Source of the DNA: Granulicella sp.
GTDB taxonomy: Bacteria > Acidobacteriota > Terriglobia > Terriglobales > Acidobacteriaceae
Length of the DNA stretch: 53,087 bases
Direction of reading: 5' to 3'
Assembly: GCA_027335345.1 (NCBI GenBank)
Contig: DAHWOF010000025.1
Span: forward strand, 1-53,087
Shown: in pieces, positions 26,035 to 38,918 of the stretch
How the letters are laid out: each line of letters begins with the position of its first letter
Numbering within the stretch: the first letter of the stretch is position 1
Position numbers and translations under genes: made by a program
Notes under the pieces: model-generated
Databases searched by the model: none
Told to the model about the DNA's origin: nothing
What the model saw: the letters and a program-made list of their open reading frames with translations, nothing else

Positions 26035-29000
26035 ATGCGCCTAAGAGGGAACCTTAGGACCTCCTCTGTCTGGTTCACGATATTCCTTGTGGCGGCTGCA
26101 GCAGAGGTGCCGACGCCTAACACAGCCCAAGCCCAGGCGACGAGCGCTTCTATCCATGGCCTGGTAGCTGATCCGACGGGCGCACTCCTTGCGGGTGCGA
26201 GGGTCACGGTGATCAATAGAAGCACGGGAATATCCAGCACGCAGAAGACCGACCGCGAGGGATATTATATGTTTCCCGGCCTGCATATTGGAGGGCCGTA
26301 CACGGTTACGATCGATGCGCGCGGATTTCGAACCTGGGTTGTGAACGGTATCGTGCTTGACCTGAGTTCGGAGCGGGAGATCGATGCCAAGCTGAAACTT
26401 GGCGCGGCATCGCAGACCATCAAGGTAAGCTCCTCAGCAGTACAGGTAGAGACCTCGGACGTGCAGCTTAAGAGCGTGGTGGGAGCCACAGAGATTGAAG
26501 AGCTGCCGCTCCTCGGCCGAGATGCCGTGGAGCTTCAGAAGACCGCTCCGGGAGTGGTCGAGTCGAATGACCGCGAGGGCACATTCTCCACCAATGGAAG
26601 CCAGACGCAGGAGAACTCCTACCTGTTGGACGGCACCGACATTAACGACATTCTTCTGAATACGCCGGGCATTACAGTCAATCCCGATGCGCTGGGGGAG
26701 ATCAATATCATCTCCAGCACGCTGGATCCGGAGTTCAGCCGCAACTCTGGAGCGATTGTCGATGAAACGTTGAAGAGTGGAACAAATCAGTTTCACGGCG
26801 ACGGGTTTGAGTTTTATCGGGACACCTTTCTGAACAACGGAAACTACTTCTCCGCCACCAGGCCGGTCTTCCACCAGAACGTTTTTGGAGGCACGCTGGG
26901 CGGGCCGATCCTGAAGCGGCATGCATTTTTCTTTGTAGCCTATCAGGGGTTGCGCAGCCGCACGGCGCAGACGCAACTGACGCAGGTCTTCGATACCCTG
27001 CAAAGGAGTGGTGATTTCTCCTCCGACGGCGGCTTTTCAACGAACCCTATTCCATTTCCGGGCGGTCTGCAGGGGCCCCAAGGTTTTTGCTCGGCAGGAA
27101 CACCGTGGAACGCGTGTTTCCCGAACTCGCAGGTGCCGGCATCGAACTTCAATCCGATTGCGCTGAACCTGCTAGATAAGTTCGTGCCCGAGGCGAATTT
27201 TATGAGCGGTGGGATTAACTACTACAACTTCAATGCGCCGAATACGGATGGAGACGACCAGGGCATTATCCGTATCGACGACCAGTTGACGCGGAAGGAT
27301 GCGCTGTGGGCTTCGACGATCTTTGATTCCAGTCTGAGCACGAATACGTTGCCGCTGCCTTCAACCACGGCAACGGGAACAGGGGCTAATCTGCCGGGGT
27401 TTGAGGCCGATAATGCTTCGCACATCAAGATCTTCAATGCATCGTGGACTCGGCTGATCAACAGCAGCACGGTCAACGAGCTGCGTGCGGGGTACTTCCG
27501 CTTTAATTACGCGGAGCTGGAGCCGGCGCCGACGACGCTGGCGGCTCCTTCGTCCTTTGGGTTCAATATTGAGCCGCAGGATGCAGCAGCCGGAACGCTT
27601 CCGTTTATCAATGTGACAGGGTACTTTGCGCTCGGTTTCAGCACCAACGGTCCGCAGCCGCGCAAAGATGAGAACTACGACTACTTCGATAACTTCAGCA
27701 AGGTGGTGGGGAACCATAGCCTGAAGTTTGGAGCTAATGTAGAACGATTCATCATGAGCAATCCGTACTATTCCGACAACAGCGGGGCGTACGATTTTGT
27801 GGGCTCAGGGACATATAGCACGGGCGATCCCGCTGCGGATTTCCTGCTTGGGGTTCCTGCTACCTATAATCAGGGTTCCGGTTACTTTGTGGATGTTCGT
27901 GCCTGGCAATACTATGGATATGCACAAGACCACTGGATGGTCTCCGATTCGCTGACGCTGGCCTATGGCGTCGGATATGACGTGGAGACGCCGTTCGAAA
28001 ACCTGCAGTATCAGGGCGTAGGCGTTACCTGCTGGCTGCCAAACGATGAGCAATCGAAGGTGTTTAGCGATGCGCCGCCGGGTCTGCTGTATCCCGGCGA
28101 TCCCGGATGTAACAGAAATGGGAGCCCGGTAACCCACTGGAATCATCTGTCTCCTCGGGTAGGCTTTGCGTGGTCGCCGAGCGAGGAATTGGGCCTGCTC
28201 TTCGGGGCGCCGGGTGAGCATGATTTTGTACTTCGCGGCGGATTCGGGGTCTATTGGAACCGCCCGCAAGCAGAGGGCGCCCAGGAGAACTCCAACGATC
28301 CACCCTTTTCGTTGAACAGTGTTGGCGCGGCTGGGTTAGGCGGGAGCCCCAGCTTTGCGAATCCATTTCAAGATATTGCAGGCAGGCCGGGTGCGTCTTA
28401 CACGGCGAATCCATTTCCGTATCAGGTCCCCAGGCCGGGCCAGAATGTCAGCTTCGCTTCACTCTACCCGTTGGAGATGGACAATCTTACATCCGCCTTC
28501 GATGTTCCTTATACGTATAACTTCAATCTGAATATTCAGCGATCGCTGGCCGGAAATATGGTGCTGACGGTGGGCTATGTGGGGTCGCTGGGGCAGAGGC
28601 TGATGCGCGCCAAAGAAGGTGACAGGATTACGCAGGCCGGACACAACGCCTGCCTGAGCGGCACGGGAACTGGCGCACCGATCAATCTTGACGGTGGCAC
28701 ATTCACATGCGTGCAACTAGCTTCGGCGCAGTCGTTGTACTTCCCTGGCGATAAGACGCAGCCCGCGATTGTACCTGGTTCCCAGGTTCCGGGGTTGTTT
28801 CCCAATGGGCTTCCGGATTACCTGTCGATCGGCGGCATGTATACGAATGGCTCTTCCAACTACAACGCGCTCCAGGTCTCGCTGGTGAAGGCGCCCACGC
28901 ACGGGTTGTACTTCACGATTGCCTATACGTATAGTCATGGATTGGATAATGCTTCCAGTCTTGAGGATTCCGTGGCCAACGGATATGGAACGAACTATGT

Positions 29001-29640
29001 GCCCGGGTTCCGGCACCTGAGTTATGGCGATTCCGCCTACGATGCGCGCAACCGGCTGGTGGCTTTATATGACTATGCGATTCCTGTGGCGCATGGGCTG
29101 GGCGGAGGTCCGCTGGCGCGCTCCCTTCTAGGTGGTTGGAACTTCTCCGGCATCACCGCTCTGCAGAACGGCTTCCCGGTGACGATCTACGATGGCGGCG
29201 TCTACAACTCGCTGTATTGCGACGAGTTCAGCTTCGTCAATTGCCCGGACGTACCTAATACATCGACGTTCCGTATTAAGACACTGAATCCGCGTCGTCC
29301 CGGCCATTATTGGTTCAATCCGGCGACGTTTTCACAGGAGCCGATTGGGACATTCGGCAATGTGAAGCGGAATTTTTTCCATGGACCTGGATTCAATTAC
29401 TCGAACGTAGAGATCTACAAGAATATCGCGCTGGGAGGCCTGGATAACGCGAGGTACGTACAACTGCGTCTGGAGGCGTATAACGCGTTCAACCACGCCA
29501 ACTTTGCAAACCCAAATGGCGACTATGGCGCCGGAGCTCCGGCGTTCGGGGCGATCAGTTCGGTGGATCAGCCGGTGAATCCCAGTGGCGATCCGCAACC
29601 GGCGCGCGCCATTCAGCTTGCGGGGAAGTTTTACTTTTAA
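26035..29640 (+). CDS. Oar-like TonB-dependent outer-membrane receptor with carboxypeptidase-regulatory domain
   Basis: A 1201-residue outer-membrane protein of the Oar/OmpA-like TonB-dependent class that is expanded in Acidobacteriota. A signal peptide ends near residue 34 (PNTAQAQA). A carboxypeptidase-regulatory-like beta-sandwich follows (about 38-125: ASIHGLVADPTGALLAGARV, then GYYMFPGLHIGGPYTVTIDA). Next is a plug domain with EELPLLGRDAVEL and NGSQTQENSYLLDGTDIND. The rest is a beta-barrel of about 950 residues ending in the aromatic FYF, typical for barrel insertion. AAGGAG lies six bases before the ATG. The substrate is unknown; polysaccharide or peptide fragments are typical guesses. 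Two AhpD-like genes and an MFS gene follow on the same strand. Confidence 0.92.
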   Translation: MRLRGNLRTSSVWFTIFLVAAAAEVPTPNTAQAQATSASIHGLVADPTGALLAGARVTVINRSTGISSTQKTDREGYYMFPGLHIGGPYTVTIDARGFRTWVVNGIVLDLSSEREIDAKLKLGAASQTIKVSSSAVQVETSDVQLKSVVGATEIEELPLLGRDAVELQKTAPGVVESNDREGTFSTNGSQTQENSYLLDGTDINDILLNTPGITVNPDALGEINIISSTLDPEFSRNSGAIVDETLKSGTNQFHGDGFEFYRDTFLNNGNYFSATRPVFHQNVFGGTLGGPILKRHAFFFVAYQGLRSRTAQTQLTQVFDTLQRSGDFSSDGGFSTNPIPFPGGLQGPQGFCSAGTPWNACFPNSQVPASNFNPIALNLLDKFVPEANFMSGGINYYNFNAPNTDGDDQGIIRIDDQLTRKDALWASTIFDSSLSTNTLPLPSTTATGTGANLPGFEADNASHIKIFNASWTRLINSSTVNELRAGYFRFNYAELEPAPTTLAAPSSFGFNIEPQDAAAGTLPFINVTGYFALGFSTNGPQPRKDENYDYFDNFSKVVGNHSLKFGANVERFIMSNPYYSDNSGAYDFVGSGTYSTGDPAADFLLGVPATYNQGSGYFVDVRAWQYYGYAQDHWMVSDSLTLAYGVGYDVETPFENLQYQGVGVTCWLPNDEQSKVFSDAPPGLLYPGDPGCNRNGSPVTHWNHLSPRVGFAWSPSEELGLLFGAPGEHDFVLRGGFGVYWNRPQAEGAQENSNDPPFSLNSVGAAGLGGSPSFANPFQDIAGRPGASYTANPFPYQVPRPGQNVSFASLYPLEMDNLTSAFDVPYTYNFNLNIQRSLAGNMVLTVGYVGSLGQRLMRAKEGDRITQAGHNACLSGTGTGAPINLDGGTFTCVQLASAQSLYFPGDKTQPAIVPGSQVPGLFPNGLPDYLSIGGMYTNGSSNYNALQVSLVKAPTHGLYFTIAYTYSHGLDNASSLEDSVANGYGTNYVPGFRHLSYGDSAYDARNRLVALYDYAIPVAHGLGGGPLARSLLGGWNFSGITALQNGFPVTIYDGGVYNSLYCDEFSFVNCPDVPNTSTFRIKTLNPRRPGHYWFNPATFSQEPIGTFGNVKRNFFHGPGFNYSNVEIYKNIALGGLDNARYVQLRLEAYNAFNHANFANPNGDYGAGAPAFGAISSVDQPVNPSGDPQPARAIQLAGKFYF

Positions 29641-29978: not shown

Positions 29979-30551
29979 ATGCCTCATATCGCACTGCCAG
30001 AGGGTTTGCCGGGAATTCGCGGCGCCATGGCTTTCCGTCCCGAGATCGCAGGGCCAATGAGTGAACTAGCTGAGGTACTTCTGCATGGACCGCATTCGCT
30101 GCTGCCCGGGGACCGTGAACTGATTGCCACCTATGTTTCGTCGCTCAACGAATGCTATTACTGTCAAACCAGTCACGGCGCGATTGCGGCTGTGCATCTG
30201 GATGGCAATGAAGATCTGGTGAGGAGCGTGAAGGAAGACTTCCACCATGCTGAGATATCAGAGAAGCTTAAGGCCCTGATAGTGATCGCAGCAAAAGTGC
30301 AGCGAGGCGGCAAGAACCTGACCGAGGAAGATGTTGCGTTGGCGAGGCGTCAAGGAGCAACTGACCTGGAGATTCACGATGTGGTGCTGATTGCGGCTGC
30401 CTTCTGCATGTACAACCGTTATGTAGATGGATTGGCCACTACCCAGCCCCGCGATGAAGCCCTTTACCGGGAGCGAGGCAAACAGGTTGCGAGCGAAGGG
30501 TACATCATCGCCGGCAAGAAGTATCTGCCGTTCATGTCCGTAAATCGTTAA
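29979..30551 (+). CDS. AhpD-like (carboxymuconolactone decarboxylase family) protein, copy 1
   Basis: A 190-residue protein of the AhpD/CMD family, all-helical enzymes that often reduce peroxides through a CxxC pair. The active site NECYYCQTSHGAIA gives Cys59, Cys62 and His66 in the AhpD arrangement ExxCxxCxxxH, with Asn in place of the usual proton-relay Glu. The C-terminal block ATDLEIHDVVLIAAAFCMYN and NRYVDGLA matches peroxidase-related members. It is the first of three close paralogues in the window (also 30562 and 42177), all opening with MPHI.LP.GL. The spacing of 10 bases to copy 2 indicates an operon. AAAGGATG lies upstream of the start. Confidence 0.88.
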   Translation: MPHIALPEGLPGIRGAMAFRPEIAGPMSELAEVLLHGPHSLLPGDRELIATYVSSLNECYYCQTSHGAIAAVHLDGNEDLVRSVKEDFHHAEISEKLKALIVIAAKVQRGGKNLTEEDVALARRQGATDLEIHDVVLIAAAFCMYNRYVDGLATTQPRDEALYRERGKQVASEGYIIAGKKYLPFMSVNR

Positions 30552-30561
30552 GGAGAAGACC

Positions 30562-31101
30562 ATGCCACATATCGCTTTACCAGAAGGACTACCGGGCATC
30601 AGCGCCGGTTTCGCTTTTCGCCCCGAGACTGCCAAGCCCATGCGAGAACTAGCGCATATTCTTCTCCATGAGCCTGGGATGCTTACGCCAGGAGAGAGGG
30701 AGTTGATCGCGACATCTGTCTCAGCACGCAATGATTGCTATTTTTGCCAGACCAGCCACGGCGCCGCCGCTGCTGCGCACCTCGGCAGTGAGGAAGTGGT
30801 TCAGAAGGTGAAGGTTGATCCGGAGAACGCGCCGGTCTCTGCAAAGCTGAAGGCTCTGCTCAACATCGCCGGAAAGGTCCAGATTGGAGGCAAGAACGTG
30901 AGCGAGGAGGATATTGCCCGGGCGCGCGCTCTCGGAGCCACGGACCTTGAGATTCACGACACGGTGCTGATCGCGGCGGCATTCTGCATGTACAACCGCT
31001 ACGTCGATGGCCTGGCGACCTGGCAGCCGCAGGATCCATCCATGTATGCGCAGATGGGCAAGCGCCTGGCGGAACACGGATATCGGGACCCCTCCCGGTG
31101 A
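30562..31101 (+). CDS. AhpD-like (carboxymuconolactone decarboxylase family) protein, copy 2
   Basis: A 179-residue paralogue of the preceding gene. The active site is NDCYFCQTSHGAAA, with Cys59, Cys62 and His66 at the same positions as copy 1. The C-terminal block ATDLEIHDTVLIAAAFCMYN is nearly identical, but the last 15 or so residues differ and are shorter. AAGGAGAAG precedes the ATG. The tandem arrangement suggests local duplication followed by divergence. Peroxide or organic-hydroperoxide reduction is inferred from the family; the reductant is unknown and no AhpC is nearby. Confidence 0.88.
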   Translation: MPHIALPEGLPGISAGFAFRPETAKPMRELAHILLHEPGMLTPGERELIATSVSARNDCYFCQTSHGAAAAAHLGSEEVVQKVKVDPENAPVSAKLKALLNIAGKVQIGGKNVSEEDIARARALGATDLEIHDTVLIAAAFCMYNRYVDGLATWQPQDPSMYAQMGKRLAEHGYRDPSR

Positions 31102-32448: not shown

Positions 32449-32694
32449 GTGGGCCGTGCAGGATTGGAGGCACGAAGCGCGAGATCCCCGGTTTGCTGTT
32501 GGCGAGGGTGCGGAGCGCCTATGCCTCTGAAGGGCGAGCGCGGCGTAGAATCGAGCCAGCATCCGGGAGAACTGATTGTTGGAGGGGGAAAGTTAAGCCG
32601 TTTCGGTCGCGACTTGGGTGTCGGCGTCCCTTTACAGAGAATACGGAGTGATTTTCCACAGGGCGAGGGTAGGTTGGTGGGGGAAGATCGCTCT

Positions 32695-32723
32695 TAGAGG
32701 TTGAATGGCGAAAAGCACCTCTA
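32695..32723 (+). promoter_or_regulatory. Possible ribosome-binding-site hairpin at the sigma-fusion gene start
   Basis: TAGAGGT (32695-32701), which contains the ribosome-binding site AGAGG, is exactly complementary to ACCTCTA (32717-32723). The start codon ATG 32705 falls in the 15-base loop. Pairing would hide the ribosome-binding site and could limit translation. Short inverted repeats of 7 bases are not rare by chance. Confidence 0.35.
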
Positions 32724-35719
32724 GATGGTCAGCCGCGGCCGCATCGGACCCGGCCGAGACGCTTTTGGGAGACCGCTATGGCCAGCTCCTGGTGTGGGGC
32801 AGAGTGCTGGCGCGTGGCGATCAGGCCCTGGCGGAGGAGATCGTTCAAGATCTGTGCCTGCAGTTGGCGCTCTCGCCGCCCGATTTCAGCCGGATCGCCA
32901 ATCTCGATGGTTATCTCTACACCTGTCTCCGCCACCTGTACGTGTCGAAGCTGGCACGGGCTTCGCGAGAGGCCGTGCGCTTTGTGAGCGTAGCGGACTG
33001 CGATTCCTTGCGCTTTGCCCAGGATGCGGGTCAGCGGTTGGATTCGATCGAGAGTCAGAATGTTCTGCGGAGCATCTGTTCCTACTCGATCTGGCGCCGG
33101 GAACAGGCGAAGGGTTTCAGCTATTTCATCCTCCATTTTTTTCACGGCTACTTCCATCGCGAAATCGCCGAGCTTGCCTGTTTGCCCTTGGCGGCGATCT
33201 ACAACAAGCTGAAAGCTGCCCGCACGGAATTGAGGATCCAACTGGAGGAGCCGGACAAGCTTCGTATCTCCCACGGGCGGGAGGCTCCACAGCCTGCATT
33301 CATGCGGATTGCGATTTCGTCAGAGGAGTTCTTCCGGGAGCTACGCTGCGCGATTCTGGCTTCGCGGAGAGGTGAGTGTCTTCCCGAGGAAGAGTTGCTT
33401 GGCCACTATCGCGCTGCCAACCCGTCTCCCCTTCCGTGCTCGCTGCTGGCTCATATTGTGAGTTGCGAACGTTGTCTGGAGATGGTGGATCGCCATCTGC
33501 GCAGACCATCCCTGCGCCAGCGCGACGCTCTGGACGGTATCGATCCTTCGCCCACCCTGGCTGTGAAGGAGGGGGGCGGCGCCGGACCTGGGCGGCTCCG
33601 CGCTCTGCAGGGACGTCTCCGTCGCCTTCGTGAGCACCGGCCCGGCACGCTATCCATCGCGGTGAATGGCAGGATTGTGGGTTCTCATGATGTTCGCGGA
33701 GAATCCGGCCTACTCTCGGTAAGGGCGGGCTCACAGGACTCTGTGGAGTTCGTCGAGGGGTTCTCTGAGCAGAATGTACGCCTGGTCTGGCTCTCTATCC
33801 AGGATTGCCCTCCGAACGGGCCGCACACGCTCAACCAGCGCGTCGAACTCAGCGACGGCCGCTGGCTGGAACTGAGGCTCGATTTCGATGGCCTAGGGCT
33901 GAACTGCGAGTTGTCCTACTTCGATCCGGCATTTGAACCGGAAGCTGCTGGAGAAGATTTCGAAGGGCTGCCGGCGCAGCCGAGCGGCGACTCGCAGAAG
34001 ACGCTGCCGGCAGGCGAAACGTCGCCGTCCGGGGAGCGTCGAAGATGGGCCGCTCTGGAGCCTTCAAGGGGCAGGCTGCATTTGTTGCAGGTGCTCGGGT
34101 GGGGATTCGCGCTGCTGGCGCTTTGTTGTGTTGGCTACTTGTTCTGGCGCTCCACGTATCGCCCGCTGGATGCGCAGACCCTTCTGAACCGTTCGATGTT
34201 GGCTGAGGCCCGGAGTCTTGAGGGTCACGCGGAGCATCAGGAGATCTCCCTGGAGGAGATTGGAGCTGGCGGGCAGACGCTGGCTCAGGGCTCGATCGAT
34301 CTGTGGAAGGATGGCGTCACCGGCCGGCGCATGCGGCGCTTGTATGACCGCCAGCATCGGCTGGTGGCGGCGGAATGGAAAGGGAAGGACAATGCAGTCG
34401 GATCGTATGCTGCCACCCTCAGCCCTGGCGCTTCTGGCGAAGATCGTCTGCTGGCCTCCGATCCCCTTTGGATGCAGGCCCTTTCGACGAAGGCATTCCG
34501 CGTCATTGCCAGTGCTCGGATTCGCGTGACTGCTGACCGAGCGGGCTATATGCTGGCTGCTGATGTTGAAAAAAGGAAAGAGCGGCAGTTGGTGTATGTC
34601 ACGCTGATCCTCGATCGGCGCTGGATGCCGGTTGGAGAGATCCTGCGGATGCGCACTGGCGCCGCCGTCCGGGAGGTCCGCCTGATGCAGACCCGATTTG
34701 AAGTTGAGCCTGCGTCCTCGGTTCCAAATTCTGTCTTTGATCCTGGCGTTCTCAGATCCCAGGAAGGATCTGTCGCGCGCTCTTCGATCGCTCCGGCCTC
34801 CGGCGGCGGGCTCTCCCTCTCTGAAGACGTGCGGCTGGCTGCGCTCGATATTGGAGTTCTCTACAAGCTCCATGAGCTGGCTATGGATACAGGTGAGCCG
34901 ATTCAGGTGGAACGAGCGCCTGGCGAGCGAATCCGCGTGACAGGATTTCTCTCCGAAGGACAGCGTAAGGCTGAGCTTCTGGCCGCCCTTCGATCGCTTC
35001 CCGATCAGCCCGCGCTCGAAGTTCACCTTGGCAGTCAGGCGGAGGTGAGCGCGCTGGCGCAGAGAGATGTGGAGAAAGAAGCTCGGTCAGCCACGGTGTA
35101 TGATTTGGCGGCGCGACCACCGTTGGCGGAGCCAGTGCTACGTGCGTACTTTGAAGAGCACCCTCTACCGAACAAGACAGTTCAAGCAGCCATCACCCAG
35201 TTTGAAGGTGAAGGGTTGAACCACGCGCAGGCCGCTTTGCAGCACGCCTATGCTCTGGACCGTCTGGGCAACGAGTTCACTCCGGCGGAGCTGTATGGGG
35301 TGAAGGCTACCTCTCGCCGCCAGTGGGCGGAGATGGTTGAGGGTCACGCGATGGCTTTGGAGAAGGAGCTGCGCGCCCTTGCCGGCGAGATGAGCCTCGT
35401 TGGCATCCCGCGCCCACCGGAGGCCTCGGCAGCGCCGGACGGGATTGCCAGCCCGGCGGAGTTCGCGCGGGCGTCCCGGGCTCTGCTCAACAAGACACAG
35501 AGGCTCAATCGACGGGTCGACGCAGCCTTGGCGTCAAACATGGATGCGGCTCCAAAAAGCAGCGCGAGAGCTGTGCTGGAGTCTGCGGCGGATTCGATAC
35601 CACTGGCGGAGGCTGCCAGCATGGAACGTCTCGCTGACCACCTGAAGGAAGCTGGTGAGAGGGCCAGTGGAGGCAGGACTCGTGCCGAAGATCGTTTGTC
35701 ACCCGCACCGCTCCACTGA
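32705..35719 (+). CDS. Membrane-tethered ECF-like sigma factor fused to a zinc-binding anti-sigma-like motif and a large extracytoplasmic region
   Basis: A 1004-residue mosaic. Residues about 15-90 resemble sigma region 2 (AEEIVQDLCLQLAL, then NLDGYLYTCLRHLYVSKLAR). About 117-182 resembles region 4 (FHGYFHREIAELACLPLAAI, then YNKLKAARTEL). Residues 205-265 include HIVSCERC (His250, Cys254, Cys257), the H-x3-C-x2-C signature of zinc-binding anti-sigma domains. A beta-rich domain follows (about 312-410), then one membrane helix (about 458-482, VLGWGFALLALCCVGYLFW). About 520 extracytoplasmic residues remain, including a small alpha/beta repeat near 735-790 and an Ala-rich helical tail. Sigma, anti-sigma and sensor are usually separate proteins. 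The gene lies 40 bases upstream of an Oar-like receptor. Release of the N-terminal part by proteolysis is an inference. Each domain call is by eye; sigma identity is the firmest. Confidence 0.8.
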   Translation: MAKSTSRWSAAAASDPAETLLGDRYGQLLVWGRVLARGDQALAEEIVQDLCLQLALSPPDFSRIANLDGYLYTCLRHLYVSKLARASREAVRFVSVADCDSLRFAQDAGQRLDSIESQNVLRSICSYSIWRREQAKGFSYFILHFFHGYFHREIAELACLPLAAIYNKLKAARTELRIQLEEPDKLRISHGREAPQPAFMRIAISSEEFFRELRCAILASRRGECLPEEELLGHYRAANPSPLPCSLLAHIVSCERCLEMVDRHLRRPSLRQRDALDGIDPSPTLAVKEGGGAGPGRLRALQGRLRRLREHRPGTLSIAVNGRIVGSHDVRGESGLLSVRAGSQDSVEFVEGFSEQNVRLVWLSIQDCPPNGPHTLNQRVELSDGRWLELRLDFDGLGLNCELSYFDPAFEPEAAGEDFEGLPAQPSGDSQKTLPAGETSPSGERRRWAALEPSRGRLHLLQVLGWGFALLALCCVGYLFWRSTYRPLDAQTLLNRSMLAEARSLEGHAEHQEISLEEIGAGGQTLAQGSIDLWKDGVTGRRMRRLYDRQHRLVAAEWKGKDNAVGSYAATLSPGASGEDRLLASDPLWMQALSTKAFRVIASARIRVTADRAGYMLAADVEKRKERQLVYVTLILDRRWMPVGEILRMRTGAAVREVRLMQTRFEVEPASSVPNSVFDPGVLRSQEGSVARSSIAPASGGGLSLSEDVRLAALDIGVLYKLHELAMDTGEPIQVERAPGERIRVTGFLSEGQRKAELLAALRSLPDQPALEVHLGSQAEVSALAQRDVEKEARSATVYDLAARPPLAEPVLRAYFEEHPLPNKTVQAAITQFEGEGLNHAQAALQHAYALDRLGNEFTPAELYGVKATSRRQWAEMVEGHAMALEKELRALAGEMSLVGIPRPPEASAAPDGIASPAEFARASRALLNKTQRLNRRVDAALASNMDAAPKSSARAVLESAADSIPLAEAASMERLADHLKEAGERASGGRTRAEDRLSPAPLH

Positions 35720-35759: not shown

Positions 35760-38700
35760 ATGAGGCTGCTTGCATCGGCCATTCTATGGCTGGCCGGGTC
35801 TGTGCAGGCCCAGGTGAGTACGGCGAATGTTACTGGGGTAGTGGAGGATGGGACGGGAGCGCGGATTCGTAGCGCGTTGGTGAAGTTGATCAATACGCAA
35901 ACGGGAGCGGAAAACGACTGCAAGACCAGTAGCTATGGTAGCTTTCTTCTCCCCGGCGTCTTTCCCGGAACATATGTGCTGCGGATTGCGCGGAGTGGTT
36001 TTACGACGCTGCAGATCGCCGGTCTGACGCTGAATGTTGGAGAGACAAAAGATCTTTTGATCCGGATGCAGGTAGGCTCTATTCATCAGACAGTGACGGT
36101 GAATGGCTCCGGGCTGGCGCTGAACACAGTTGATGGCACGATGAGCACGATCGTCGATCGGACGTTTGTGGCCAACATCCCGCTGGACGGACGCAGCTTT
36201 CAGGATCTTATCTCGATGACGCCGGGGGTTTTGACGCAGACGCCGCAGAACTTTAACGGGATGGGAGCGGGCAATGGAGACTTCAGTGTGAATGGGGAAC
36301 AGCCGGAGGCGAACGCTTACTCTGTGGACGGCGTGTCGGCCGATTTCGGCATCGGTTCGCTGGCCGGGCATGAGAAGGTTGCGAGCGCCGGCGATCTGCC
36401 GGGTACGACGGCTATCGGTACGACCCAGAGCCTTGCATCGGTGGATGCGCTGCAGGAGTTCCGGGTTCTCAGTTCGTCGTACTCTGCGGAGTACGGCGGC
36501 GGCCCGGGTGGGCAGTTCAGTCTCCTCACCCGGTCGGGAACCAGTGCTTTCCATGGCGCCTTCTTCGATTATTTCAGGAACTTTGAGGCCGATGCCGCTG
36601 ACTGGTTTATACGGTACTATCCGGGGATCCTGCGTTACCAATATTTTTCCATGCCGTTCCACCAGAACGATTTTGGCGGTAAGTTAGGGTTTCCAGTGCT
36701 GCTCCCTGGAATCGACCACGGACGGAGACGAACGTTTCTCTTTTTCTCCTACGAAGGCCTTCAGGTAAAGCAGCCAACGGGTCTATTTGTGCAGTTTGTT
36801 CCTTCAAGCGAGATGATCACCGAGGCGCCACCTGCGCTCGAGCCGATTCTTCCGCTACTTGCCTACAATACGACGGGCCTCAGGTTGGCGGTTCCGCATT
36901 TGGGACTCACTGCTGCGGGTGAGAATCCAACACCTTATCCGGACAGTGTGGATGCGGTTGCCGTCCGGCTCGACCATACGTTCACTCGCGGGTCAACCGC
37001 TTTTATCCGGTACAGCAATACACCCAGCAACAGCCAATCGGCATCTTTGGCCTCTCTGACTCTCAACTCCGTCCATACACAGACATTGACCGCGGGCTGG
37101 ACGGCCCAGCTCTCTTCAGCGATAGCCAACGATCTGCGAGCCGGGTACGCAACGACTCACTCCTTGTTGCAGACGCAGACGATCGGCTATTTGATCTACG
37201 ACGGTTTCGAGAACTTTCCCTTGAATGTGTCGCTGGGGGCGCCGTCGGGTTCAAGCTCTGAGAGCAGCGATTTCTTTGTTCAAATCGCCGGAGCCGGCAG
37301 CTCTGAGGTCAATACGGATGTGGCTTCCGGGTCGCTTGACGAATGGAATTTGCGGGACACGATCGCGTATCAGCGGGGGCACCATCTGCTGCAGTTTGGG
37401 TTGGATGTGCGGCATCTCCTCTCGACCGTAGAGCCGCCAGCGCTGACGATTGAGGCGGATTACTTCAATGAGCCGTCGATCCTGCAGAACCTGGCCTCTG
37501 ACATCTCGATCACAAAGGCGGAGAAGGCGACGCCGGTCTTCAATGAGTTCGCCGGGTTTGTAGAGGATGAATGGCACGTTTCACCGGCGGTGACGCTATC
37601 TCCGGGGGTGCGCTGGGAGGTGAACCCGCCGCCGCACGGGTGGGAAGGGGACGATGCTTACACGCTGCACGGCGACGTGGCTTCACCAACTTCGTTGCAG
37701 CTTGCCCCGCGCGGCTCTCCGCTGTGGAAAACGAGCTGGCTCAACTTTGCTCCTCGTTTCGGCGTTGCCTGGAGCGCGGACAAGCATCCTGGCCGGGAGT
37801 TGGTGCTACGGGCGGGCGGAGGAGTCTTTTTTGAAACGGATAACCGCGCCGCAATGGGCGCCTTCAGCGCTCTGGGGTTTTCTGCGACCTCGCATCTTCA
37901 GAACGTCCCAGTGCCCGTGACTTCCGCTCAGCTCGATTTTTCGTCTGTTCCGGCCGCGCCGTATACCGATAGCACGGTCTTCGACTTCCAACAGCACCTG
38001 CAGCTACCGTTTGTGTTGCAGTGGAATGGTTCAGTCGAGAAGGCCTTCGGAAAAGATCAGGCGCTCACCGCCTCCTGGACGGGTGCGGCCGGACGCCGTT
38101 TGTTGCTGCAACGCAGGACGAGCGTAAGCGCCGGCAATCCGGAGTTTGGCGAGGTCATCTCCTTCCCGAACGGAATCACCTCGAATTACCAAGCGCTCCA
38201 AGTCAAGTTTCAACGTTCTGTCTCCCCAGGAGTTCAGGCGCTTGCGGACTGGACATGGTCCCATGCGCTGGACTATGGATCAACGGACCCCGCGTGGCCG
38301 CTCACCCGCAGCAATTCGGACTTCGACGTGCGACAAAATGTGGAGGCGGCGGTCTCCTGGACGGAGCGTGAGATCTCCGGCAATTGGTTGAAGAGGAGTG
38401 TTCTTAGCGGGTGGGGCGCAGATGGGCTGCTGTCCTTGAGAACCGCGTTCCCGGTGACGCCGCTGGGGACGATCTACTCGGACCCTGCGACGGGCAACCG
38501 CTACTACAGCGGCGATGATCTGATTCCTGGCCGTCCGCTTTACCTGTATGGGTCGCAGTATCCTGGCGGCCGCATGTTCAATGGCGGCCCCAACGCCACG
38601 AATCCAGCCTTTGTGCTGCCTGCGCCGGGTTCGGCCGGAGATGCGCCCAGGAACAAGCTGCGCGGATTTGGGGAGCAGCAGATCAACATCGACTTCCGCA

Positions 38701-38918
38701 AGGAGATCGCGATTCGAGGAAGGCTGGGTCTCGAGCTGCGCGGAGAGGCTTATAACCTCTTCAATCATCCGGACTTTGGTTACATGGATGCAGTGACCAC
38801 CGACTTTCTATTCGGCCAGGCCGCCCTGATGCTGAACCAGAGTTTCGGCTTGACCAGCTCCCTCTATGAACCCGGCGGTCCACGTTCGATTCAGATTGAC
38901 GCGCGATTTCACTTCTAA
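35760..38918 (+). CDS. Oar-like TonB-dependent outer-membrane receptor, second copy
   Basis: A 1052-residue outer-membrane receptor. The start at 35760 gives a clean signal peptide (MRLLASAILWLAGSVQAQ). A carboxypeptidase-regulatory-like domain follows (STANVTGVVEDGTGARIRSA, then YGSFLLPGVFPGTYVLRIA). The plug has IPLDGRSFQDLISMTPGVL and FSVNGEQPEANAYSVDGV. The long barrel ends in DARFHF, a typical C-terminal barrel signal. It resembles the receptor at 26035 in architecture but is clearly diverged. It starts 40 bases after the membrane-tethered sigma gene, so the two are probably co-transcribed. Its last 111 bases overlap the 3' end of the convergent sugar transferase gene. The ligand is unknown. 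Confidence 0.92.
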   Translation: MRLLASAILWLAGSVQAQVSTANVTGVVEDGTGARIRSALVKLINTQTGAENDCKTSSYGSFLLPGVFPGTYVLRIARSGFTTLQIAGLTLNVGETKDLLIRMQVGSIHQTVTVNGSGLALNTVDGTMSTIVDRTFVANIPLDGRSFQDLISMTPGVLTQTPQNFNGMGAGNGDFSVNGEQPEANAYSVDGVSADFGIGSLAGHEKVASAGDLPGTTAIGTTQSLASVDALQEFRVLSSSYSAEYGGGPGGQFSLLTRSGTSAFHGAFFDYFRNFEADAADWFIRYYPGILRYQYFSMPFHQNDFGGKLGFPVLLPGIDHGRRRTFLFFSYEGLQVKQPTGLFVQFVPSSEMITEAPPALEPILPLLAYNTTGLRLAVPHLGLTAAGENPTPYPDSVDAVAVRLDHTFTRGSTAFIRYSNTPSNSQSASLASLTLNSVHTQTLTAGWTAQLSSAIANDLRAGYATTHSLLQTQTIGYLIYDGFENFPLNVSLGAPSGSSSESSDFFVQIAGAGSSEVNTDVASGSLDEWNLRDTIAYQRGHHLLQFGLDVRHLLSTVEPPALTIEADYFNEPSILQNLASDISITKAEKATPVFNEFAGFVEDEWHVSPAVTLSPGVRWEVNPPPHGWEGDDAYTLHGDVASPTSLQLAPRGSPLWKTSWLNFAPRFGVAWSADKHPGRELVLRAGGGVFFETDNRAAMGAFSALGFSATSHLQNVPVPVTSAQLDFSSVPAAPYTDSTVFDFQQHLQLPFVLQWNGSVEKAFGKDQALTASWTGAAGRRLLLQRRTSVSAGNPEFGEVISFPNGITSNYQALQVKFQRSVSPGVQALADWTWSHALDYGSTDPAWPLTRSNSDFDVRQNVEAAVSWTEREISGNWLKRSVLSGWGADGLLSLRTAFPVTPLGTIYSDPATGNRYYSGDDLIPGRPLYLYGSQYPGGRMFNGGPNATNPAFVLPAPGSAGDAPRNKLRGFGEQQINIDFRKEIAIRGRLGLELRGEAYNLFNHPDFGYMDAVTTDFLFGQAALMLNQSFGLTSSLYEPGGPRSIQIDARFHF

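Follow-up and report, generated by a model that had tools for sequence, protein, structure and literature searches.

A one-piece sigma/anti-sigma/sensor gene beside an Oar-like receptor gene in Granulicella sp.: a candidate cell-surface-signalling regulator of Acidobacteriota

Can a single gene encode a sigma factor, the inhibitor that holds it and the sensor that sets it free, and, if so, what would such a protein sense? The question is raised by a gene at 32705-35719 (plus strand) of a 53,087-nucleotide stretch of DNA from Granulicella sp. (GenBank assembly GCA_027335345.1, contig DAHWOF010000025.1, positions 1 to 53,087), referred to here as the window. A sequence-only reading had described its product as one polypeptide joining a sigma factor of the extracytoplasmic function (ECF) type, a zinc anti-sigma motif, a membrane helix and a long outer sensor. 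Here, we report that the gene belongs to a family of 43 distinct one-piece proteins (window included) in Acidobacteriota, each encoded directly upstream of a TonB-dependent receptor gene on the same strand. The gene is probably (roughly 0.7) a one-piece cell-surface-signalling regulator in which the state of the receptor would control sigma release, probably by proteolysis.

Domain architecture

The gene is a single open frame with an ATG start, and its product carries, in order, an ECF-type sigma factor, a zinc anti-sigma motif, one transmembrane helix and about 520 residues beyond the membrane, in the order that had been read from the letters. Its features are as follows.

32705 to 35719, plus strand: one-piece sigma/anti-sigma/sensor protein, 1004 aa (open reading frame; 42-row alignment; codon comparison with the protein of locus L032)
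32753 to 32989, plus strand: sigma region 2, residues 17-95 (Pfam Sigma70_r2; profile matches to sigma-2 domains in the PDB; modelled helices)
33047 to 33259, plus strand: sigma region 4, about residues 115-185 (weak Sigma70_r4_2; TIGR02985; invariant residues)
33317 to 33514, plus strand: zinc anti-sigma domain (ZAS, class I), residues 205-270, with likely ligands C225, H250, C254 and C257 (alignment; motif count; codon comparison)
33617 to 33940, plus strand: CYT, a conserved cytoplasmic domain without recognised fold, residues 305-412, EHRP...VNG...FSEQ...LSD.R...Y.DP (42-row alignment; also in a separate protein of locus L093)
34070 to 34150, plus strand: single transmembrane helix, about residues 456-482 (hydropathy; peak at least 1.52 in all 42 aligned rows)
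34172 to 34819, plus strand: first domain beyond the membrane, residues 490-705, without recognised fold (sensor profile shared by fused and split forms)
34820 to 35074, plus strand: BON-like domain, residues 706-790 (BON-type Pfam models; profile-to-PDB search; element order of the model)
35132 to 35716, plus strand: C-terminal region, residues 810-1004, poorly conserved (alignment)

The ECF-type sigma factor occupies the first 185 residues. In Pfam searches of the kind that the sequence-only reading had proposed as a check, Sigma70_r2 matches the window protein at residues 37-88 (E 4e-5; 23.7 bits, just under the Pfam cut-off of 24), Sigma70_r4_2 weakly at residues 141-176 (E 0.042) and zf-HC2 not at all. 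Two NCBIfam models match under their curated cut-offs (TIGR02985, residues 38-180, E 1.4e-7; TIGR02937, residues 37-180, E 3.5e-5), and the N-terminal placement of regions 2 and 4 stands, weakly for region 4. Family-wide, region 2 is firm: Sigma70_r2 is found in 39/42 aligned members (E<=0.5; best, 7e-13), and the family profile matches solved ECF sigma-2 domains in the PDB (best, 2.7e-9), with SigH, SigR and SigW among the matches. Regions 2 and 4 are present without region 3, the pattern that defines ECF sigma factors, with region 4 recognised mainly through whole-sigma models (TIGR02985 in 38/42 members, E<=1e-3); Sigma70_ECF is matched by 13/42, and R131, E153 and R173 of region 4 are invariant across the 42 rows. 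Residues 21-80 are predicted as helices (block predicted local distance difference test [pLDDT], 58-77; rest of the model poor).

The string HIVSCERC (residues 250-257) had been taken for a zinc-binding anti-sigma motif, and the family agrees. H-x3-C-x2-C occurs in 45/45 fused rows (one contig counted twice and the truncated protein L156 included), and H250, C254 and C257 are invariant in the 42-row alignment. An upstream cysteine extends the motif to C225-x24-H250-x3-C254-x2-C257, and this four-ligand pattern is present in 40/45 rows. In class I zinc anti-sigma domains, the fourth ligand lies upstream of H-x3-C-x2-C. The separate ZAS+CYT protein of L093 gave no zf-HC2 hit either, and zf-HC2 is absent among the 25 of 34 Pfam families listed for the 42 fused members. 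H-x3-C-x2-C is used as the class I motif in PMC7406223 (here and below, statements on published work refer to the portions of the cited texts available to us).

Between the zinc motif and the membrane helix lies CYT, whose columns average 48% identity across 42 members; no Pfam family was matched by more than 1/42 members, and the PDB search gave nothing below E 0.8. A ZAS+CYT profile matched 10/396 genomes of the phylum (E<=1e-6) in 14 rows, 12 in long frames of 937-1036 aa, one in the L093 protein and one in a 144-aa remnant. CYT, the downstream receptor and the split relatives described below had been passed over in the sequence-only reading. The membrane helix had been placed at about 458-482, close to where hydropathy puts it (peak of the window protein at residues 458-476).

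Codon comparison with the L032 protein (79% identical; nonsynonymous distance [dN], 0.121; synonymous distance [dS], 0.484) points to purifying selection, with strong constraint, on the sigma segment (dN, 0.051; dS, 0.447; dN/dS, ~0.11), the zinc segment (dN, 0.053; dS, 0.739; dN/dS, ~0.07) and CYT (dN/dS, ~0.15). The linkers are near neutral (residues 186-204: dN, 0.208; dS, 0.179; residues 413-455: dN, 0.412; dS, 0.369).

Beyond the membrane, a sensor profile of residues 490-960 covers fused and split forms. For residues 490-705, no Pfam family was matched by more than 2/42 members, and there was no PDB match at E<=5. A LolA/RseB-like fold, suggested here by the sequence pattern, is not claimed; Pfam and PDB profiles gave nothing for it. 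In residues 706-790, BON-type models were the only Pfam models found in more than 1/42 members (BON itself in 7), and the window's own segment had no BON-type match at E<=1. OsmY (E 0.006) and OmpATb (E 0.012) top the list of marginal PDB matches to the profile of this segment, which a low-confidence model (pLDDT, ~51-66) folds as helix-strand-strand-helix-strand. This is the element order of the BON fold. Residues 810-1004 of the window protein gave no family match in the Pfam scan.

Family and distribution

Searches covered two genome sets from the window's own family (150 and 398 genomes) and one from the phylum (396 genomes), with overlap between the sets, plus one contig scan. Loci with flanks held 44 fused rows; L032 and L121 (both contigs 62,528 nt, with equal protein sizes) were counted once. 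L156 (CYT not detected, short contig) and L157 (broken frames) are not among these rows, and the truncated match G142:C244 enters no count. L133 was counted as fused though its frame breaks near the C terminus, and it was left out of the 42-row alignment. Homologues with the same domain order, whose survey had been proposed as a check, are thus not confined to two-protein forms. They occur in many genera of one family, and f71 and f22, two further families of the phylum, contribute a single one each; some lie in genomes of one or few contigs, and five fused genes (L034, L036, L043, L048, and L049) occur in the single genome G035. At E<=1e-20, at least 55/398 family genomes and at least 16/396 phylum genomes match, some through the sensor alone; the counts are lower bounds, with two candidates scored per genome.

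In L157, L133 and L067, the fused gene is broken or reduced to a remnant, and the receptor frame of L157 is broken as well. A short-peptide pattern scan of the whole genome collection, the one search that reached other phyla, matched only L032 and a Lentisphaeria sequence (L033), a result that does not imply absence from other phyla. The L033 match (892-960) consists of 23 residues, 48% identical to sigma region 4 of the query, and probably belongs to an ordinary sigma factor.

The downstream receptor

35760 to 38918, plus strand: Oar-like TonB-dependent receptor, CarboxypepD_reg plus plug plus OMP_b-brl_4 (Pfam; neighbourhood survey)

The description of a one-protein route proved too narrow, given a receptor gene directly downstream of 43/43 fused genes, at less than 60 nt in 39/43 (overlaps included, mechanical start codons). 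In the window, the mechanically called receptor frame begins at GTG 35655; ATG 35760, 40 nt past the stop of the fused gene, precedes a signal-peptide-like sequence and is the likelier start. CarboxypepD_reg and OMP_b-brl_4 were both found in 38/38 receptors scanned with Pfam, a receptor type known as Oar. The STN domain was found in 0/38 at E<=0.01 and, in the window receptor, not even at E<=1. Receptors of this family are common in the window's genome (44 match rows in 3.65 Mb, where more than one row can stem from a single gene), and we estimate chance adjacency at about 1 percent per gene; 43/43 is therefore far beyond chance.

The window receptor is 93% identical to that of L032. Across the family, receptor distances correlate with fused-protein distances (r, 0.575; 0/999 permutations; 37 pairs). 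With sigma distances removed, a correlation between sensor segments and receptor persists and is strongest for the CarboxypepD_reg domain (partial r, 0.40 to 0.53; 0/199 permutations each; 37 pairs); over the same pairs, there was no such signal for ZAS (-0.10), and the value for CYT (0.08) was reached by 10/199 permutations. Such co-variation is what contact between sensor and receptor would give, and DNA linkage would give a similar gradient.

Split relatives

Outside the fusions, the sensor is found in stand-alone zinc-motif proteins of about 580-675 aa. From 35 separate-sensor rows, L058 and L059 (starts at the contig end), L133 (116-aa fragment) and L157 (broken frames) were removed, leaving 31. 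H-x3-C-x2-C lies within the first 200 residues in 30/31, and zf-HC2 matched 5/5 of the split sensor proteins scanned (E<=0.5), one of them above the cut-off (L095, E 1.7e-6). A sigma gene was found directly upstream in 25/31 by profile, with a 26th (L062) by eye, and a receptor downstream in 22/31. Four loci (L139, L140, L142, and L143) have the sigma gene and no receptor; in five (L144, L147, L149, L150, and L152), neither neighbour was found, and a frame of about 1310-1330 aa comes after each of these five sensor genes. L058 (873 aa) was considered as a second independent fusion and set aside, its sigma region 4 reading like out-of-frame sequence.

Locus L093, from another family of the phylum, encodes a separate 458-aa protein with zinc and CYT regions and, on reading of the sequence, a hydrophobic stretch, directly upstream of a separate sigma gene. 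In a sigma tree, the L093 sigma shares an unresolved fork with those of the fused proteins and lies outside a supported group of 24 split sigmas; the fused group did not come out demonstrably as one clade. In this tree, 2/6 outgroup rows were wrong frames (very long branches), and L054_S_10613 and L067_S_7015, among the 28 "split" rows, are probably other sigma genes of those loci. Given the separate L093 protein and the position of its sigma in the tree, it is possible that fusion combined two modules. At L093:5739-10727, the ZAS+CYT gene, the sigma gene and a gene for a long TPR/CHAT-like protein (from the sequence) all point the same way, an arrangement in which this anti-sigma module may serve a different output.

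Proposed mechanism and alternatives

We propose that the zinc domain holds the sigma regions fused to it in a clamp and would thereby keep them from use by RNA polymerase for as long as the protein stays in the inner membrane. The periplasmic part would read the state of the outer-membrane Oar-like receptor, perhaps via the receptor's N-terminal CarboxypepD_reg domain. Substrate engagement by the receptor would turn the periplasmic part into a protease substrate; cleavage at site 1 and then, RseP-type, at site 2 would free the sigma part, which would activate the sigma/receptor operon that encodes it and, in some relatives, also the genes behind that operon. Fusion may fix the sigma:inhibitor ratio at 1:1 and prevent exchange among the paralogous systems of one cell. 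That the sigma is tethered at the membrane and set free by proteolysis or by a change of conformation, as suggested earlier, is a sensible model for such an architecture.

Several observations weigh against this proposal. Region 4 is weak throughout (Sigma70_r4_2 in 14/42 members at E<=0.5; best, 1.4e-4), so that the weakness is a trait of the family and not of the window protein alone. The structure models, built from two-row alignments with L032 as the sole homologue row, are poor (mean pLDDT, 40.3 and 35.4), and only the BON-like element order and the sigma-2 helices appear usable. The positive-inside signal is weak, with K/R more frequent before the helix in 23/42 members, equal in 10 and less frequent in 9. 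The co-variation gradient fits plain linkage too, since the segments that track the receptor are those nearest to it in the DNA; moreover, nearest neighbours agree in only 16/37 receptor-fused pairs, which may reflect noise or past partner exchange. CarboxypepD_reg also occurs in the window's other receptor (26035-29640) and is therefore not a dedicated signalling domain. The 9/31 split relatives without a downstream receptor show that the sensor is not strictly tied to receptors, and the upstream box described below was spotted by eye before it was tested and is confined to the close clade. A site-2 protease homologue is present in the window's genome, which says little because such proteases are near universal (14/14 control genomes).

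How would other explanations fare? The periplasmic part might sense the state of the envelope or membrane directly, with the receptor simply a target gene of the operon. The BON-like domain and the nine receptor-less split relatives would fit this, but the receptor behind every fused gene does not, nor does the residual sensor-receptor co-variation (itself open to the linkage explanation), and we regard direct sensing as somewhat doubtful. Unlikely, in our view, is a conformational switch without proteolysis, in which the whole protein would stay in the membrane and sigma would act there once the zinc/CYT clamp opened: the linkers are near neutral, as flexible tethers would be, and the soluble fusions CorE and ECF41 act so (PMC8999054), but IutY of Pseudomonas putida, a membrane fusion with experimental data, is activated by cleavage, and tethering would presumably limit access to promoters.

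The weak region 4 and a window region 2 just short of its Pfam cut-off could also mean that the sigma is degenerate and no longer drives transcription, the protein acting as an envelope factor; the low dN of the sigma segment, the three invariant region 4 residues and the 38/42 matches to the whole-sigma model make this very improbable. The gene could also be an artefact, either because faulty sequencing or assembly has run two genes together or because internal translation yields a free-standing anti-sigma; the chance of this is close to negligible. Split relatives exist, and the window protein has a methionine at residue 200, between its sigma and zinc domains; it is shared only with L032 in a 22-row alignment, however, and the fused frame is conserved in 43 distinct proteins from many genomes, some of one or few contigs, which refutes the assembly error that had been named as a possible refutation. 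Two-protein relatives standing alongside fused ones strengthen the case for a genuine fusion.

For the receptor-coupled regulator that we prefer, a wider reading can be offered tentatively, at clearly less than even odds. It would represent STN-independent TonB-receptor signalling, in which the state of an Oar-type receptor passes via CarboxypepD_reg to a BON-like sensor covalently joined to the sigma factor's own zinc-type inhibitor, and Acidobacteriota would run several insulated copies per cell, partly for peptide or protein uptake or export. This last function is suggested by an S9-peptidase-like gene behind the receptor in some relatives.

Together, the fused family (at least 43 distinct members in Acidobacteriota) and its two-protein relatives allow a direct comparison of fused and split signalling. 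Soil Acidobacteriota gain testable regulation for some of their many Oar-like receptors, the family is tied to a receptor type for which the literature searched gave no described signalling partner, and CYT is a newly defined conserved cytoplasmic domain awaiting a function.

Comparison with known systems

The system is not undescribed in principle, as had been supposed: one-protein forms are in print, the fused ECF sigma/anti-sigma proteins in PMC8999054 being IutY (activated by Prc and RseP), ECF48, ECF52, ECF53 and some ECF36. IutY is a 41-kDa sigma/anti-sigma hybrid of ECF243 whose periplasmic part was modelled closely like that of FecR (PMC9249621) and whose cleavage by Prc and RseP was shown experimentally (PMC8999054, PMC9249621). 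It is termed a unique hybrid protein, and its partner, IutA, is a typical signalling receptor (PMC5411451). In IutY as in the window family, a single protein unites sigma, one membrane helix and an anti-sigma part in the periplasm, and a receptor gene stands alongside. The window family differs in its zinc motif, its added cytoplasmic domain, its BON-like rather than FecR-like periplasmic part and its receptors without an STN match. No FecR family was found for the window protein, for its segments 486-705 and 706-790, or among the 25 of 34 families listed for the 42 members.

With ECF48, ECF52 and ECF53, the window family shares a zinc-finger domain, a membrane helix and an extracytoplasmic part behind the sigma. 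ECF52 (SCO4117 of Streptomyces coelicolor) has a zinc finger, a membrane helix, a proline-rich region and a carbohydrate-binding module and is limited to Actinobacteria (PMC5826349). Those three groups are described as actinobacterial, whereas the window family belongs to Acidobacteriota and has the extra cytoplasmic domain, the BON-like sensor and an outer-membrane receptor partner; no carbohydrate-binding Pfam match, a trait of ECF52, was found for the window protein or among the families listed for the 42 members. The fused family shares the fusion principle with IutY and with ECF48, ECF52 and ECF53 and fits neither group fully.

FecI/FecR/FecA likewise encode sigma, membrane regulator and receptor together, in the gene order of most split relatives, but here the regulator has a zinc motif and no FecR match in the scans, and the receptors have no STN match. 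In FoxA/FoxR, the receptor's signalling domain meets the regulator via STN-like domains (two-hybrid data and a predicted model; PMC11637429). The downstream genes of the fused family resemble those for Oar-type receptors in carrying both CarboxypepD_reg and OMP_b-brl_4, and the literature search turned up no dedicated sigma/anti-sigma partner for receptors of this type. ECF270 has an acidobacterial member in the tables of PMC8999054, with another member under "regulatory extension, proteolysis"; the resemblance to the fused family lies in these table entries. An ECF group number for the fused family may already exist. No description of the family was recognised in the open-access literature in the portions available, and the available text on the acidobacterium Solibacter (PMC3174227) describes no such fusion. 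As far as seen, a receptor-linked fusion with a zinc-type domain is new, and so are the extra domain, the BON-like rather than FecR-like sensor and the receptors without an STN match.

Upstream box and genes behind the receptor

32665 to 32675, plus strand: upstream box, GAGGGTAG[AG]TT, candidate promoter element (30-40 nt before the start codon; seen by eye, then shuffle test)

GGGTAG[AG]T occurs in 7/10 upstream regions of the closest homologues (500 shuffles: mean, 0.05; maximum, 1) and in 0 of the other 32 (7/42 overall, counting the regions of sufficient length), and it is restricted to the close clade; within the window alone, it is not significant. The box is possibly an autoregulated promoter element. 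A search for a two-part promoter motif in the 42 upstream regions gave a weak result, with the best pair in 7 regions against up to 6 in 20 shuffled sets. The upstream regions of L048, L050, L127 and L053 have TTAAGA..GGCGAATAT in common, followed about 15-17 nt on by GATTCGC or a variant; the sequence is in part an inverted repeat (GGCGAAT/ATTCGCC).

Crude gene calling gave a next gene above 120 aa behind the receptor in 36 loci; in 13 of these, the next genes are homologous to one another and encode about 620-810 aa. Both members of this group that were scanned match Peptidase_S9 (L034 above the cut-off, L045 just below), and the next gene of L049, outside this 13-gene cluster, matches Peptidase_S9 strongly. 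Other next genes scanned were redoxin-like, Omp28/TPR, DUF6528, GDPD or PMT_2 or had no match. The window and its nearest relative, L032, have no same-strand gene close behind the receptor. At L038:12097-13431 and L040:976-2703, the place behind the receptor is taken by a gene for an AhpC/redoxin-domain protein and not for an S9 peptidase. Elsewhere in the window, two adjacent, similar carboxymuconolactone decarboxylase/AhpD-like genes with the same initial residues (29979-31101) stand behind the Oar-like receptor at 26035-29640.

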